From an uncultured Bacteroidota bacterium (GTDB lineage: Bacteria; Bacteroidota; Bacteroidia; Flavobacteriales; Flavobacteriaceae), in assembly GCA_902514615.1 (NCBI GenBank), contig CABXRG010000002.1, forward strand, positions 1 through 64,000: DNA of 64,000 bases, read 5' to 3'. The first letter of the stretch is position 1. Each line of letters starts with the position of its first letter. Shown in pieces: positions 58,111 to 63,423 of the stretch. The notes beneath the pieces are model-generated. The model made no database searches. It was not told where the DNA came from and worked only from the letters and a program-made list of their open reading frames with translations. A program made the translations under genes and the position numbers.

Positions 58111-59883
58111 ATGGAAATCAAATCAGAGATTTCAAATTTAACTTCTAATTTTTTAAATAAAAATTATGCTATTAAAGTTGAAAAAATTGAAATCCAAAAT
58201 ACTAAAAAAGATTTTGTAGGTGATTTTACTATAGTTCTTTTTCCTTTTTTTAAGTTGATCAGTAAAAATCAAATATCAAAACTTGGAATATTACTAGGAG
58301 AAAATTTAATTGAAAATTCAGTCAATTTTACTGATTACAATATCGTTGGTGGATTTTTAAATCTCACAGTTTCAGATAGATACTATATAGATTTTTTAGA
58401 TACTATTAAAGATGATTTAAATTTTGGTAAATCTGAAGGTAAAAATGAAACTTATATTGTTGAGTTTTCATCTCCAAATACAAACAAACCTCTTCACTTG
58501 GGTCACATAAGGAATAATCTATTAGGTTACTCTATTTCTAAAATTTTGGAAGCTAATGGAAAAAAAGTTCAAAAGGTTCAAATAATTAATGACCGTGGTA
58601 TTCATATCTGTAAATCCATGGTTGCATGGAAAAAATTTGCACAAGGAGCTACTCCTGAATCTGAAAATATTAAAGGAGATAAATTCGTTGGTGATTACTA
58701 TATAATGTTTGATAAAATTCATAAAGATCAAATGAAGCAACTTATTGATTCTGGCATCGACAAGGATGCTGCTGCTGAAAATACTGAGATAATGAAAGCT
58801 GCAAAACAAGAGTTAATGAATTGGGAAGACAATATTAAAGAAACTAGGCAGGTTTGGAAAATGATGAATGATTGGGTGTATGATGGATTTGAGAAGACAT
58901 ATGAGTTGCTTGGTGTGTCTTTTGATAAAAACTATTATGAAAGTGAAACCTATCTCTTGGGAAAAAATATAATGGAGGAAGGTCTTAAAAAAAATGTATT
59001 ATACAAAAGAGAAGATTCTTCTGTTTGGATTAATCTTGATAATGAAGGCCTCGATGAAAAACTTTTATTGAGATCTGATGGCACTTCAGTTTATATGACT
59101 CAAGATCTAGGAACAGCAGTTCAAAGAATTGCAGATAATTCTAATGTTAGAGGTATGATTTATACTGTAGGTAATGAACAAGATTATCATTTTAAAGTAC
59201 TCTTTAAAATATTAAAGAGATTAGGATACGATTGGGCTGATAACTTATTTCATTTAAGTTATGGTATGGTTGATCTTCCTTCAGGTAAAATGAAGAGTAG
59301 AGAAGGTACTGTTGTAGATGCAGATGACTTAATATACAATCTTATTGATACTGTTAAAGAAACTACCGAAAGTTTAGATAAGTATAAATCAAATAATGAA
59401 ATTCTAGATTTTGATGAATATAAGAAAATAGCATTAGGGGCACTTAAATATTATATTTTAAAAGTTGATCCTAAGAAGAATATTTTATTTAATCCTGAAG
59501 AGTCAATTGATTTAAGTGGTAATACTGGACCATTTATTCAGTATGCTTATGTTAGAATTCAATCAATATTAAAAAAAGTAAATAAAGATATTTTAATAGA
59601 CAAGGACTATCAGCTTAATGAAAAGGAGAAAGAAGTTCTAAAAATAATTTATGAATATCCTTCTGTAATTCTTGGTTCATACAAAGAGCTTTCACCTGCA
59701 CTTATTGCAAATTATCTATATGATCTAGTTAAAAATTATAATTCGCTTTATCAGAATTACCATATATTAAATTCGGAAACTAAAGAATCGACTTCTGTAC
59801 GGTTAATTATTTCTCAAAAAACAAGCCACATAATAGAATCTTCTTGTGATCTATTAGGTATTGATTTACCAAACAAAATGTAA
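58111..59883 (+). CDS. argS: Arginyl-tRNA synthetase
   Basis: EFSSPNTNKPLHLGHIRNNLLG; KMKSREGTVVDADDL; TGPFIQYAYVRIQSIL. Confidence 0.98.
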   Translation: MEIKSEISNLTSNFLNKNYAIKVEKIEIQNTKKDFVGDFTIVLFPFFKLISKNQISKLGILLGENLIENSVNFTDYNIVGGFLNLTVSDRYYIDFLDTIKDDLNFGKSEGKNETYIVEFSSPNTNKPLHLGHIRNNLLGYSISKILEANGKKVQKVQIINDRGIHICKSMVAWKKFAQGATPESENIKGDKFVGDYYIMFDKIHKDQMKQLIDSGIDKDAAAENTEIMKAAKQELMNWEDNIKETRQVWKMMNDWVYDGFEKTYELLGVSFDKNYYESETYLLGKNIMEEGLKKNVLYKREDSSVWINLDNEGLDEKLLLRSDGTSVYMTQDLGTAVQRIADNSNVRGMIYTVGNEQDYHFKVLFKILKRLGYDWADNLFHLSYGMVDLPSGKMKSREGTVVDADDLIYNLIDTVKETTESLDKYKSNNEILDFDEYKKIALGALKYYILKVDPKKNILFNPEESIDLSGNTGPFIQYAYVRIQSILKKVNKDILIDKDYQLNEKEKEVLKIIYEYPSVILGSYKELSPALIANYLYDLVKNYNSLYQNYHILNSETKESTSVRLIISQKTSHIIESSCDLLGIDLPNKM

Positions 59884-59886
59884 AAA

Positions 59887-59910
59887 AAAAGTCACCCGAA
59901 GGTGACTTTT
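59887..59910. terminator. Bidirectional terminator shared by argS (+) and proteorhodopsin (-)
   Basis: Perfect 10-bp stem aaaagtcacc-cgaa-ggtgactttt flanked by A-run and T-rich sequence. Confidence 0.88.
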
Positions 59911-59929: not shown

Positions 59930-60646
59930 TTACTTAGATACAGCAAGGTTATACACAACAAGACCGAAACCGATTTTGTTAACTGCATCACCAATGTTAT
60001 AGATAACATCCATTTGACCTGCAAGGCCACTAAACAATCCACTATACCATCCGTCAGTACCAGCCATATATCCAATTGGATAAATAGCCCAACCTATGAA
60101 TACGAATTTAACTAGCATTTTATGTGCACTCTCAACGTTACCACCTGCAGATTTTGCAAGTTTTGCTGCGCCACCCATAGCAACTTCATGAAGTATCAAG
60201 AAGTAAGCTATACCTGATGCTAGACCCCATAATTGAGCATCTAGTCCCATTATACCTGCCTCACCGAAGTATCCAGTGACAAGCATAATGACTGAAAGAG
60301 CAATTAATTTCCATAACAGGCTTTTAGAAGCGCCTGATGGCTTTAAAATTAGATAGAACTCAACACACATTAGTGGAACAGTTAATATCCAATCTACATA
60401 TCTGTAAGCGGTTGTTATATCGCCTTCCATTGCAGCATTTCTCATATAGTAATAATGAAGAGCTGCTATAGCAGTAATAAGAGCTGAAACAAGCATAGAA
60501 GTTTTCCACTTATCAGCTACTAAATTCATAGCATTGAAAAAGAAAAGAGTTGCCGCAAACATTGCCGCAAAACCAATCCAAAAAGTGAAATCTGTCAAGC
60601 TTAAATCAGTTGCTAAAACTGGTAAAATACTTAATAAATTTTCCAT
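59930..60646 (-). CDS. Proteorhodopsin, DTE-type proton pump, Met at spectral-tuning site
   Basis: 238 aa, 7-TM; ALHYYYMR; RYVDWILTVPLMCVEFYLIL (D85, T89, M93, E96 here); retinal-binding lysine in GDAVNKIGFG (K224). Confidence 0.98.
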   Translation of the reverse strand: MENLLSILPVLATDLSLTDFTFWIGFAAMFAATLFFFNAMNLVADKWKTSMLVSALITAIAALHYYYMRNAAMEGDITTAYRYVDWILTVPLMCVEFYLILKPSGASKSLLWKLIALSVIMLVTGYFGEAGIMGLDAQLWGLASGIAYFLILHEVAMGGAAKLAKSAGGNVESAHKMLVKFVFIGWAIYPIGYMAGTDGWYSGLFSGLAGQMDVIYNIGDAVNKIGFGLVVYNLAVSK

Positions 60647-60754
60647 AATTAAATTAATTATTGTTTATGAAAAGTAAATTAAATAAAATAATGGATTAAA
60701 AAAAGATTATTTAAAAAAAAATCATATCTTTTTTTGCGAATATTTCAATGATTT

Positions 60755-61639
60755 ATGAATAATATTATCAAATCAAGAATTTCTATATTTTTATTTTCTA
60801 TAATTATAAGTTATTTATTATCAGATGTTTATGAAAATATTTTAGGTTTTATCTTAATCTTATCAATTGGAGTAATTCATGGTGCTAATGACCTGTTGAT
60901 AATTAAAAATTATACATTAAATAAATCTATTAATGGTCAATTTTTATACTTCTTTTATTATGTGAGTATAGTGCTTCTTGGCTTTTTATTTTTTTATGTG
61001 CTCCCAGCTTTAGCGTTAGTGTCATTTATTCTAATTTCTATCTATCATTTTGGTGAACAATATTGGGAAGTGAATCTGCGTAATACTAAAATTAATCGCA
61101 CTAATAAATTATTTTTAATTATTTCTCATGGACTAATTTTTTTCATAACCATATTTATGAATAATCTTATTACTGTTAATGAAGTTTTAACCTCATTTAA
61201 TTTTATTGAGCTTAATTATTCAAGTTTACTGATTGCAATTTCTTTATTTTTAATTATATATATATTTATACTACTTAAATTCAAGAACTTAAGAAAGTTC
61301 TTATTAAATGAAATTTTATTCTTTTTCCTACTTTTTATTTTGACAATTAATGCCACTTTAATTTATGGATTTGCTATTTATTTTATTTTTTTCCATAGTA
61401 TCTTATCTATAAGAGATCAAGTAAGATTTATTTATAATGATGATAGTAAAGAAAATATTAGAAATTATATTAAAATCTCTTTACCATATTTCTTTCTTGC
61501 CTTGTCCTTTCTCTTTGTTTTTTATTTTACTATTGATTTAGAAAAAATAAATTTATTGCAAATACTTTTTACATTTATTGCTGCAATTACATTTCCTCAT
61601 GTTATAGTAATTGAAAAAATGTATAGGCATATGAAATAG
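60755..61639 (+). CDS. blh: Brp/Blh family beta-carotene 15,15'-dioxygenase
   Basis: Polytopic membrane protein with family-type His motifs GVIHGANDLLI, YHFGEQYWE, FFHSILSIRDQ, FPHVIVIEKMY; divergent neighbour of proteorhodopsin. Confidence 0.9.
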   Translation: MNNIIKSRISIFLFSIIISYLLSDVYENILGFILILSIGVIHGANDLLIIKNYTLNKSINGQFLYFFYYVSIVLLGFLFFYVLPALALVSFILISIYHFGEQYWEVNLRNTKINRTNKLFLIISHGLIFFITIFMNNLITVNEVLTSFNFIELNYSSLLIAISLFLIIYIFILLKFKNLRKFLLNEILFFFLLFILTINATLIYGFAIYFIFFHSILSIRDQVRFIYNDDSKENIRNYIKISLPYFFLALSFLFVFYFTIDLEKINLLQILFTFIAAITFPHVIVIEKMYRHMK

Positions 61640-61656
61640 GTTTTTAATTCAATATG

Positions 61657-61664
61657 TATATTTG
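61657..61664 (+). promoter_or_regulatory. TATATTTG -7-type element upstream of folD
   Basis: TAnnTTTG exact match 13 nt before ATG 61678. Confidence 0.45.
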
Positions 61665-61677
61665 AAAAAATAACTCT

Positions 61678-62553
61678 ATGAAAATAATTGATGGAAAAAA
61701 AATATCTATTGAGGTTTTAGATGAGATTAAAGCATCTGTATCCCATAGAGTTGAAAATAATCTTAAAATTCCACATCTTGCTGCAGTTCTTGTTGGAGAT
61801 GATGGCCCTAGTCAGACTTATGTGAATAGCAAAATAAAAGCTTGCAATCGAGTAGGTTTTCAATCCTCCCTTTTTAAGTTTGATAAATCTATCTTAGAGA
61901 ATGAACTTATTAATGAAATTCAAAAGATAAATATCAATAATAATATCGATGGTTTTATAGTCCAACTTCCACTTCCAAATGAAATAAATCAAGAAAATAT
62001 TCTTAATGAAGTTAGTCCATATAAAGATGTTGACGGTTTTCACCCAATTAATTATGGTAAAATGGCACTTGGCATTGATACTTTTCTTCCAGCTACTCCT
62101 GCAGGAATAATTGAGTTAATTCAAAGGTGTAATATAGATCTAAAAAGTAAAAAATGTTTAGTTATAGGTCGGAGTCAAATTGTGGGACGTCCCATTAGTA
62201 TTTTACTAAGTCAAAATAAAATTTTTGGAAACGCAACTGTAACTGTAGCTCATAGTAAATCCGATAATTTAAAACAATTGTGTCTTGAATCTGATGTTAT
62301 CATATCTGCAATTGGTATTCCAGAATTTATTAAAGGGGATATGATTAAATTAGGATCAACAATTATTGATGTTGGAATATCAAGAGTTGATGACAATTCT
62401 TCAGAAAAAGGATATAAAATTGTTGGTGATGCGGACTTTAAAAGTGTCTCTGAAAAAGTTGATTATATTACTCCCGTTCCTGGTGGAGTTGGCCCTATGA
62501 CTATAGCTATGCTATTAAAGAACACTCTTAAGGCTTGTAGTTTAAATGATTAA
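61678..62553 (+). CDS. folD: Bifunctional methylenetetrahydrofolate dehydrogenase/cyclohydrolase
   Basis: AAVLVGDDGPSQTYVNSKIKACNRVG; DGFIVQLPLP; DVDGFHPINYG; VIGRSQIVGRPISILL; PVPGGVGPMTIAMLLKNT. Confidence 0.98.
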   Translation: MKIIDGKKISIEVLDEIKASVSHRVENNLKIPHLAAVLVGDDGPSQTYVNSKIKACNRVGFQSSLFKFDKSILENELINEIQKININNNIDGFIVQLPLPNEINQENILNEVSPYKDVDGFHPINYGKMALGIDTFLPATPAGIIELIQRCNIDLKSKKCLVIGRSQIVGRPISILLSQNKIFGNATVTVAHSKSDNLKQLCLESDVIISAIGIPEFIKGDMIKLGSTIIDVGISRVDDNSSEKGYKIVGDADFKSVSEKVDYITPVPGGVGPMTIAMLLKNTLKACSLND

Positions 62554-63423
62554 CTATTCAATCTTATTCATTAAACTATAAATCTTTAATATTAATAGTC
62601 CAAATAGAACACTAGAAATAATAAGTAATTGATTTGTTAGACCAGTAGAAGAAAAAGATAACCTTATAAGAATTGTACAAATTATAAATCCAGTATTTCG
62701 CATAATCTGACTATATCTTTCTGTATAGAGGAATGATAGCAGCAGAATAAACACATCTGCAATAATTAATATAGAGAAAAAGGTATTGTAAAAAACTTCA
62801 TTTACATAGTAAAATGAACTAGCAAAATTGGAATCTAGTCCAATTGAATACCAGTTATAAATACCAATTATAAACAAGCATATCATTACTGGAATTAGGG
62901 TAATACTTATTATTTTTTTAGAACTGATAAAGCGATCTATATTATTAAAAGCTTTCTTATTTTCAATTCTAGATTTAACAAGGTTAAATAGGTATATCAA
63001 AAAGAAAAGTATCAATATACATATTAGATCATAAGTAATCTGAAGATTATATGGGTTTTGAAACCAGTAATCTGTGTCTAAATTAAGTTTAGGGATATCA
63101 TAAAAAATTCTTCTTATAATTATTAGAGAAATAATCTCAAATTGTTTTAGAATAGAAGTTGTAAATGATCTTGGCAAATAAAATATTAATAAGAAAATCT
63201 CATAATATAAAATTATTGAGAACGGAGTGTAAATAGCAGAAATAGGGTTAGTAAGTAAAAGACTTTCGGTAGCAAAATCAATAATTGAATAATTATTTAA
63301 AAGAACAAGAGATAAATGAAATATAAATCCAATTGTAGCAGTCCAAATTGTAATGCTTTCAATTTTTTTTCTGTTTACTTCAGAAAAAATTCCATCAAAA
63401 ATTCTAGTTCCTATACTAAGCAT
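62554..63423 (-). CDS. Uncharacterised polytopic membrane protein
   Basis: 289-aa ORF with about 7 hydrophobic segments; motif LLTNPISAIYTPFSIILYYEIFLLIFYLPRSFTTSILKQFEIISLIIIRRIFYD. Confidence 0.75.
   Translation of the reverse strand: MLSIGTRIFDGIFSEVNRKKIESITIWTATIGFIFHLSLVLLNNYSIIDFATESLLLTNPISAIYTPFSIILYYEIFLLIFYLPRSFTTSILKQFEIISLIIIRRIFYDIPKLNLDTDYWFQNPYNLQITYDLICILILFFLIYLFNLVKSRIENKKAFNNIDRFISSKKIISITLIPVMICLFIIGIYNWYSIGLDSNFASSFYYVNEVFYNTFFSILIIADVFILLLSFLYTERYSQIMRNTGFIICTILIRLSFSSTGLTNQLLIISSVLFGLLILKIYSLMNKIE

Follow-up and report, generated by a model that had tools for sequence, protein, structure and literature searches.

A divergent proteorhodopsin-blh pair in a marine flavobacterium: carotenoid supply, conserved spacer and loss in two related lineages

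A proteorhodopsin (PR) gene beside a gene for a retinal-forming enzyme raises the question whether the two form the usual rhodopsin phototrophy pair, and from where the carotenoid precursor of retinal would come. We addressed this for a 64,000-nucleotide stretch of contig CABXRG010000002.1 (assembly GCA_902514615.1), hereafter the window, by comparison with its relatives. Observed directly were the identity of the genes, their key residues, the genes of the carotenoid pathway, the gene order, the conservation of the spacer and two losses in place. We regard the locus, with a probability of about 0.95, as the rhodopsin phototrophy pair that is standard in marine Flavobacteriaceae; enzyme activity, proton pumping, antenna binding and a promoter function of the spacer we infer.

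The gene pair and its key residues

The features of the locus are listed in Table 1. Both open reading frames are intact and start back to back, on opposite strands and with the spacing that an earlier reading of the sequence alone had described.

Table 1. Features of the PR-blh locus and its flanks (window coordinates).
Feature	Coordinates	Strand	Remarks
argS (arginyl-tRNA synthetase)	58111..59883	+	PF00750 + PF05746; conserved left flank of the locus
Terminator-like short inverted repeat AAAAGTCACC-CGA-AGGTGACTTTT	59887..59910	.	Sequence read directly; between convergent argS and PR
Proteorhodopsin (PR), 238 aa	59930..60646	-	D85/T89/E96 triad, K224, M93, G141
Divergent spacer PR/blh, 108 bp	60647..60754	.	
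blh, predicted beta-carotene 15,15'-dioxygenase (Brp/Blh), 294 aa	60755..61639	+	Candidate His ligands H42, H98, H214, H282
folD	61678..62553	+	PF02882/PF00763; synteny; conserved right flank
ORF289, conserved helical membrane protein	62554..63423	-	No known family

The minus-strand protein matches PF01036 (E=2.5e-41, 142 bits, cut-off 24.6) and thus belongs to the bacteriorhodopsin-like family, with proteorhodopsins as its nearest members. Among solved structures, the proteorhodopsins 9jov/9jou (E about 5e-81) come closest and green PR (2l6x, 8cqc) next, and with these the window PR shares the light-driven proton pump family and the DTE motif. In an alignment of 81 PRs (the window protein and 80 named relatives) H64, R82, D85, T89, M93, E96, G141 and K224 are invariant in all 81, in window-protein numbering. 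The Asp-Thr-Glu triad (D85, T89, E96) and the Schiff-base lysine are among them, so that the sequence-only reading was right to credit the protein with all pump residues. By homology, D85 would be the primary proton acceptor and E96 the donor, and PR with retinal bound at K224 would pump protons out of the cell in the light. It might be argued instead that the protein serves as a sensory or regulatory photoreceptor and not as an energy-converting pump, as light did not stimulate the growth of Dokdonia sp. PRO95 when carbon concentrations were intermediate (PMC3587595). However, the triad is invariant, PR pumps are the nearest relatives with a solved structure, no second rhodopsin was found in the genome and no transducer gene adjoins this one. 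A sensory function is therefore scarcely credible.

Position 93, the spectral-tuning position, carries Met in the window PR, whereas green PR has Leu at the tuning position 105; Met at this position goes with green absorption. In the alignment to solved structures G141 falls on Phe152 of green PR, the site that is occupied by Gly156 in xanthorhodopsin (XR). Thus, Gly replaces a bulky residue at the carotenoid fenestration in 81/81 PRs. Whether a rhodopsin can bind a carotenoid is judged mainly by a Gly at the fenestration site, and binding of lutein and zeaxanthin was shown for KR1, a flavobacterial PR of Dokdonia eikasta that likewise has this conserved Gly (PMC12308411). Judged by this residue, the window PR would likely bind a 3-hydroxylated xanthophyll antenna at G141.

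Assignment of the plus-strand gene to the Brp/Blh family, which the sequence-only reading had made subject to an HMM search, was borne out by that search. The protein scores 155.7 bits with TIGR03753 (curated cut-off 95.25) and 123.6 bits with PF15461 (E=1.5e-35, cut-off 28). The His motifs which that reading had called conserved are indeed so: H98, H214 and H282 are kept in 56/56 Blh proteins and H42 in 54/56, the remaining two having gaps at this position. The window Blh therefore resembles the Brp/Blh dioxygenases both in family score and in the four membrane His residues associated with metal binding. One position differs from the characterised 66A03 Blh, which has a further His four residues after the third one. 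At this place the compared Bacteroidota sequences, all of which lack His, have Ser (53/56) or Val (3/56). No solved structure related to Blh was found by sequence search at E<=10. Family membership suggests that beta-carotene is the substrate, which Blh would cleave to retinal.

Carotenoid supply and normal setting of the pair

The genome from which the window comes (1.03 Mb in 40 contigs, 80.6% complete) encodes a crtE-type GGPP synthase, crtB, crtI and crtY. The crtI product, a phytoene desaturase on contig C7, passes the cut-off of NF058655 with 737 bits. The crtB product (C13) is a phytoene-synthase-family protein which passes the Pfam cut-off and lies below the NCBIfam equivalog cut-offs of the phytoene synthase models. 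Similarly, the lycopene cyclase gene crtY (C33), which adjoins the GGPP-synthase-type prenyltransferase gene, passes the Pfam cut-off and stays below the NCBIfam cut-offs of the lycopene cyclase models (equivalog/subfamily). Directly after crtB, and overlapping it, lies a gene for a 147-aa FA_hydroxylase-family protein (PF04116), which on account of this family and the overlap may be CrtZ. From this set of genes it follows that the cell should be able to make beta-carotene and probably zeaxanthin: GGPP synthase, CrtB, CrtI and CrtY would supply the beta-carotene for Blh, and the CrtZ-like protein would probably convert carotenoid to a 3-hydroxylated xanthophyll, for instance zeaxanthin. Placed next to retinal at G141, this pigment could serve as a light-harvesting antenna.

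The sequence-only reading had noted that crt genes are missing from the window, had left open whether beta-carotene comes from elsewhere in the genome or from outside, and had proposed a genome search for crtE, crtB, crtI and crtY. No crt gene indeed lies beside the pair, and those found sit on different contigs of this genome. Elsewhere in the genome is thus the part of the claim that stands. An external source is not needed, and external beta-carotene as a necessity was rejected. Its description of the locus as self-contained was too strong, because the crt genes are encoded elsewhere. In another species of the comparison, crtY is split over two matches that overlap, and one of them contains an internal stop (G017:C1:585382-586477). 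This is possibly a frameshift or an assembly error, and PR and blh are intact in that species.

Is this arrangement peculiar to the window? Among the 80 named genomes fetched with the PR alignment, seven of which are members of the window's genus and were also counted among its 25 species, blh is divergent from PR in 75, in tandem with it at a distance of 1.3 kb in one, and not seen beside PR in four, two of which have a contig end there. Tandem PR and blh were found in three genomes of other families (G043, G056, G058). Within the genus, 19/25 species carry both genes between argS and folD with a spacer of 107-109 bp; the locus was unseen in three further species with folD not assembled (G008, G020, G023), and in one the PR end lies at a contig edge (G014). 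The PR side is flanked by argS in these 19 species and in many other Flavobacteriaceae. On the blh side, the next gene in this genus is folD, and in other genera ffh comes before it. The gap between blh and folD (window 61640-61677) is without ffh in the window's genus, and it is here that other Flavobacteriaceae genera have the gene. PR-blh adjacency in Flavobacteriia has been published, concerted expression of the two genes was presumed, and no gene is more enriched than blh in PR+ genomes (PMC5932025); Dokdonia PRO95 and MED134 have the same adjacency (PMC3587595). The sequence-only reading, too, had named such pairs from marine flavobacteria. Since 75/80 relatives and 19/25 species of the genus share the pair, and its adjacency was already published, a divergent PR-blh pair is what is normally found in Flavobacteriaceae and the finding is an ordinary one. 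In itself, it is one more case of a well-known system.

Constraint on the spacer and losses of the pair

Over 19 species, pairwise identity of the spacer is 96% in the 50 bp proximal to PR and 91% in the middle, as compared to 74% (PR) and 56% (blh) at third codon positions in the same species. Since the PR-side half is more identical than third codon positions, it is under selection. Judged by these identities the spacer is strongly constrained, mostly on the PR side, and it may act as a promoter. A search of the window spacer in both directions gave no match to the published flavobacterial promoter consensus TTG/TAnnTTTG; the sequence that comes closest to TTG...TAnnTTTG is TACTTTTC, upstream of PR. 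The sequence-only reading had suggested that the shared spacer might co-regulate both genes. Its strong conservation is consistent with this suggestion; given the bias to the PR side and the missing consensus promoter, we go no further than to say that the spacer could co-regulate PR and blh.

Two species of the genus, G024 and G007, have lost the pair in place. Between argS and folD they retain remnants of both genes (L074:1013-1460 in G024, L075:969-1460 in G007). In G024, PR is reduced to an open 59-codon frame in which its first part is joined to its last and which carries D220 to N, and about 52 codons of blh are left, with the first His (H42) changed to N. In G007 the pieces are shorter and frame-damaged. 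The hairpin between argS and PR (window 59887-59910) has a counterpart in G024 (L074:965-990), and also one in G007 (L075:924-955), where the stem sequence differs and the pairing is kept. In a tree of argS and folD, G024 is the sister of the window species (support 78) within a PR-bearing clade (support 97), and G007 branches off first, all other species of the genus being grouped with support 100. Because the breakpoints differ and PR-bearing species fall between G024 and G007 on the tree, the two losses are, on this evidence, independent. In 1.105 Mb of G007, crtI is also gone from between its usual neighbours on the addA/metG side (site L251:12534-12700), and crtY from between those on the GGPPS/zupT side (L209:13398-13496), with the neighbours present in both cases. 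G024 keeps crtI, crtY and GGPPS. For crtB, the G024 contig ends inside the neighbouring gene and the G007 assembly is without the crtB neighbours.

Both genomes are drafts of about 82% completeness, and the remnants might accordingly be assembly artefacts and not gene losses. We consider this very improbable: both sets of remnants are embedded in long collinear contigs and differ in their breakpoints, they are no exact copies, given the substitutions in G024 and the frame damage in G007, and G007 is without crtI and crtY at conserved sites as well. That PR and blh decay together in two lineages supports the reading as a standard pair. The remnants in G007 also bear on the age of the pair. Discordance of PR and 16S trees in flavobacteria (PMC4831467) and the discussed lateral transfer of an XR-like gene (PMC3587595) would be compatible with a recently, horizontally acquired cassette that says little about the lineage. 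However, 19 species of the genus have the pair at the same argS-PR-blh-(ffh)-folD site, as have other genera such as G028 and G033, and the basal G007 has its remnants at this very site; the pair therefore predates the genus. Recent acquisition was rejected on the conserved site and the remnants, and we regard it as exceedingly unlikely. As in-place losses in very small genomes, the two cases offer natural knock-outs for the question when rhodopsin phototrophy stops paying.

A neighbouring membrane protein and comparison with known systems

Beyond the ordinary standard pair, two features are worth following: the constrained PR-side spacer and the membrane protein ORF289 on the far side of folD. 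ORF289 gave no usable match in Pfam, NCBIfam or PDB. Its AlphaFold2 model is weak (pLDDT 65.5, pTM 0.49), and Foldseek matches of this model, with a best E of 1.2, were discarded as meaningless. Within the genus its identity is about 83-91%, as compared to mostly 70-83% for FolD and 48-66% for Blh. Only a 26-residue remnant is left in G024, with no copy elsewhere in 535 kb of that genome, and the gene is absent from G007; in both species folD, between blh and ORF289, and a VOC gene on the other side of ORF289 are intact. In MED-G124 (L102), PR lies at a different site near photolyase-like genes, and ORF289 (L102:6804-7694) is directly downstream on the same strand. A recognisable ORF289 is missing at five PR loci that include folD (L120, L123, L133, L134, L137).

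It is tempting to see in ORF289 a member of a membrane protein family, as yet without a name, that acts together with PR in marine Flavobacteriaceae, because both losses of PR and blh included it although folD between them stayed, because G024 lost it while crtI and crtY were kept, and because it directly follows PR at the different site in MED-G124. Since only two losses and one relocation, from a comparison of the genus and PR-bearing loci, underlie this link, we put it forward tentatively and as rather doubtful. Potentially, ORF289 may act in opsin or chromophore assembly, or in the handling of the light-made ion gradient. If the link is true, rhodopsin phototrophy includes this conserved membrane protein. 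The comparison makes both its place there and the role of the PR-side spacer testable.

The closest known systems are the PR-blh pairs of Dokdonia and Polaribacter, where, as here, PR lies beside blh and the genome has a full carotenoid pathway (PMC3587595, PMC5932025). Loss of the pair is known from Polaribacter (PMC5932025), and the window's genus likewise shows losses. In contrast to both, the window's genus has genomes of about 1.2 Mb and carries the pair at the argS-folD site. Moreover, PR-lacking flavobacteria were reported to have larger genomes, whereas those of the two PR-lacking species described here are small (1.1-1.3 Mb).
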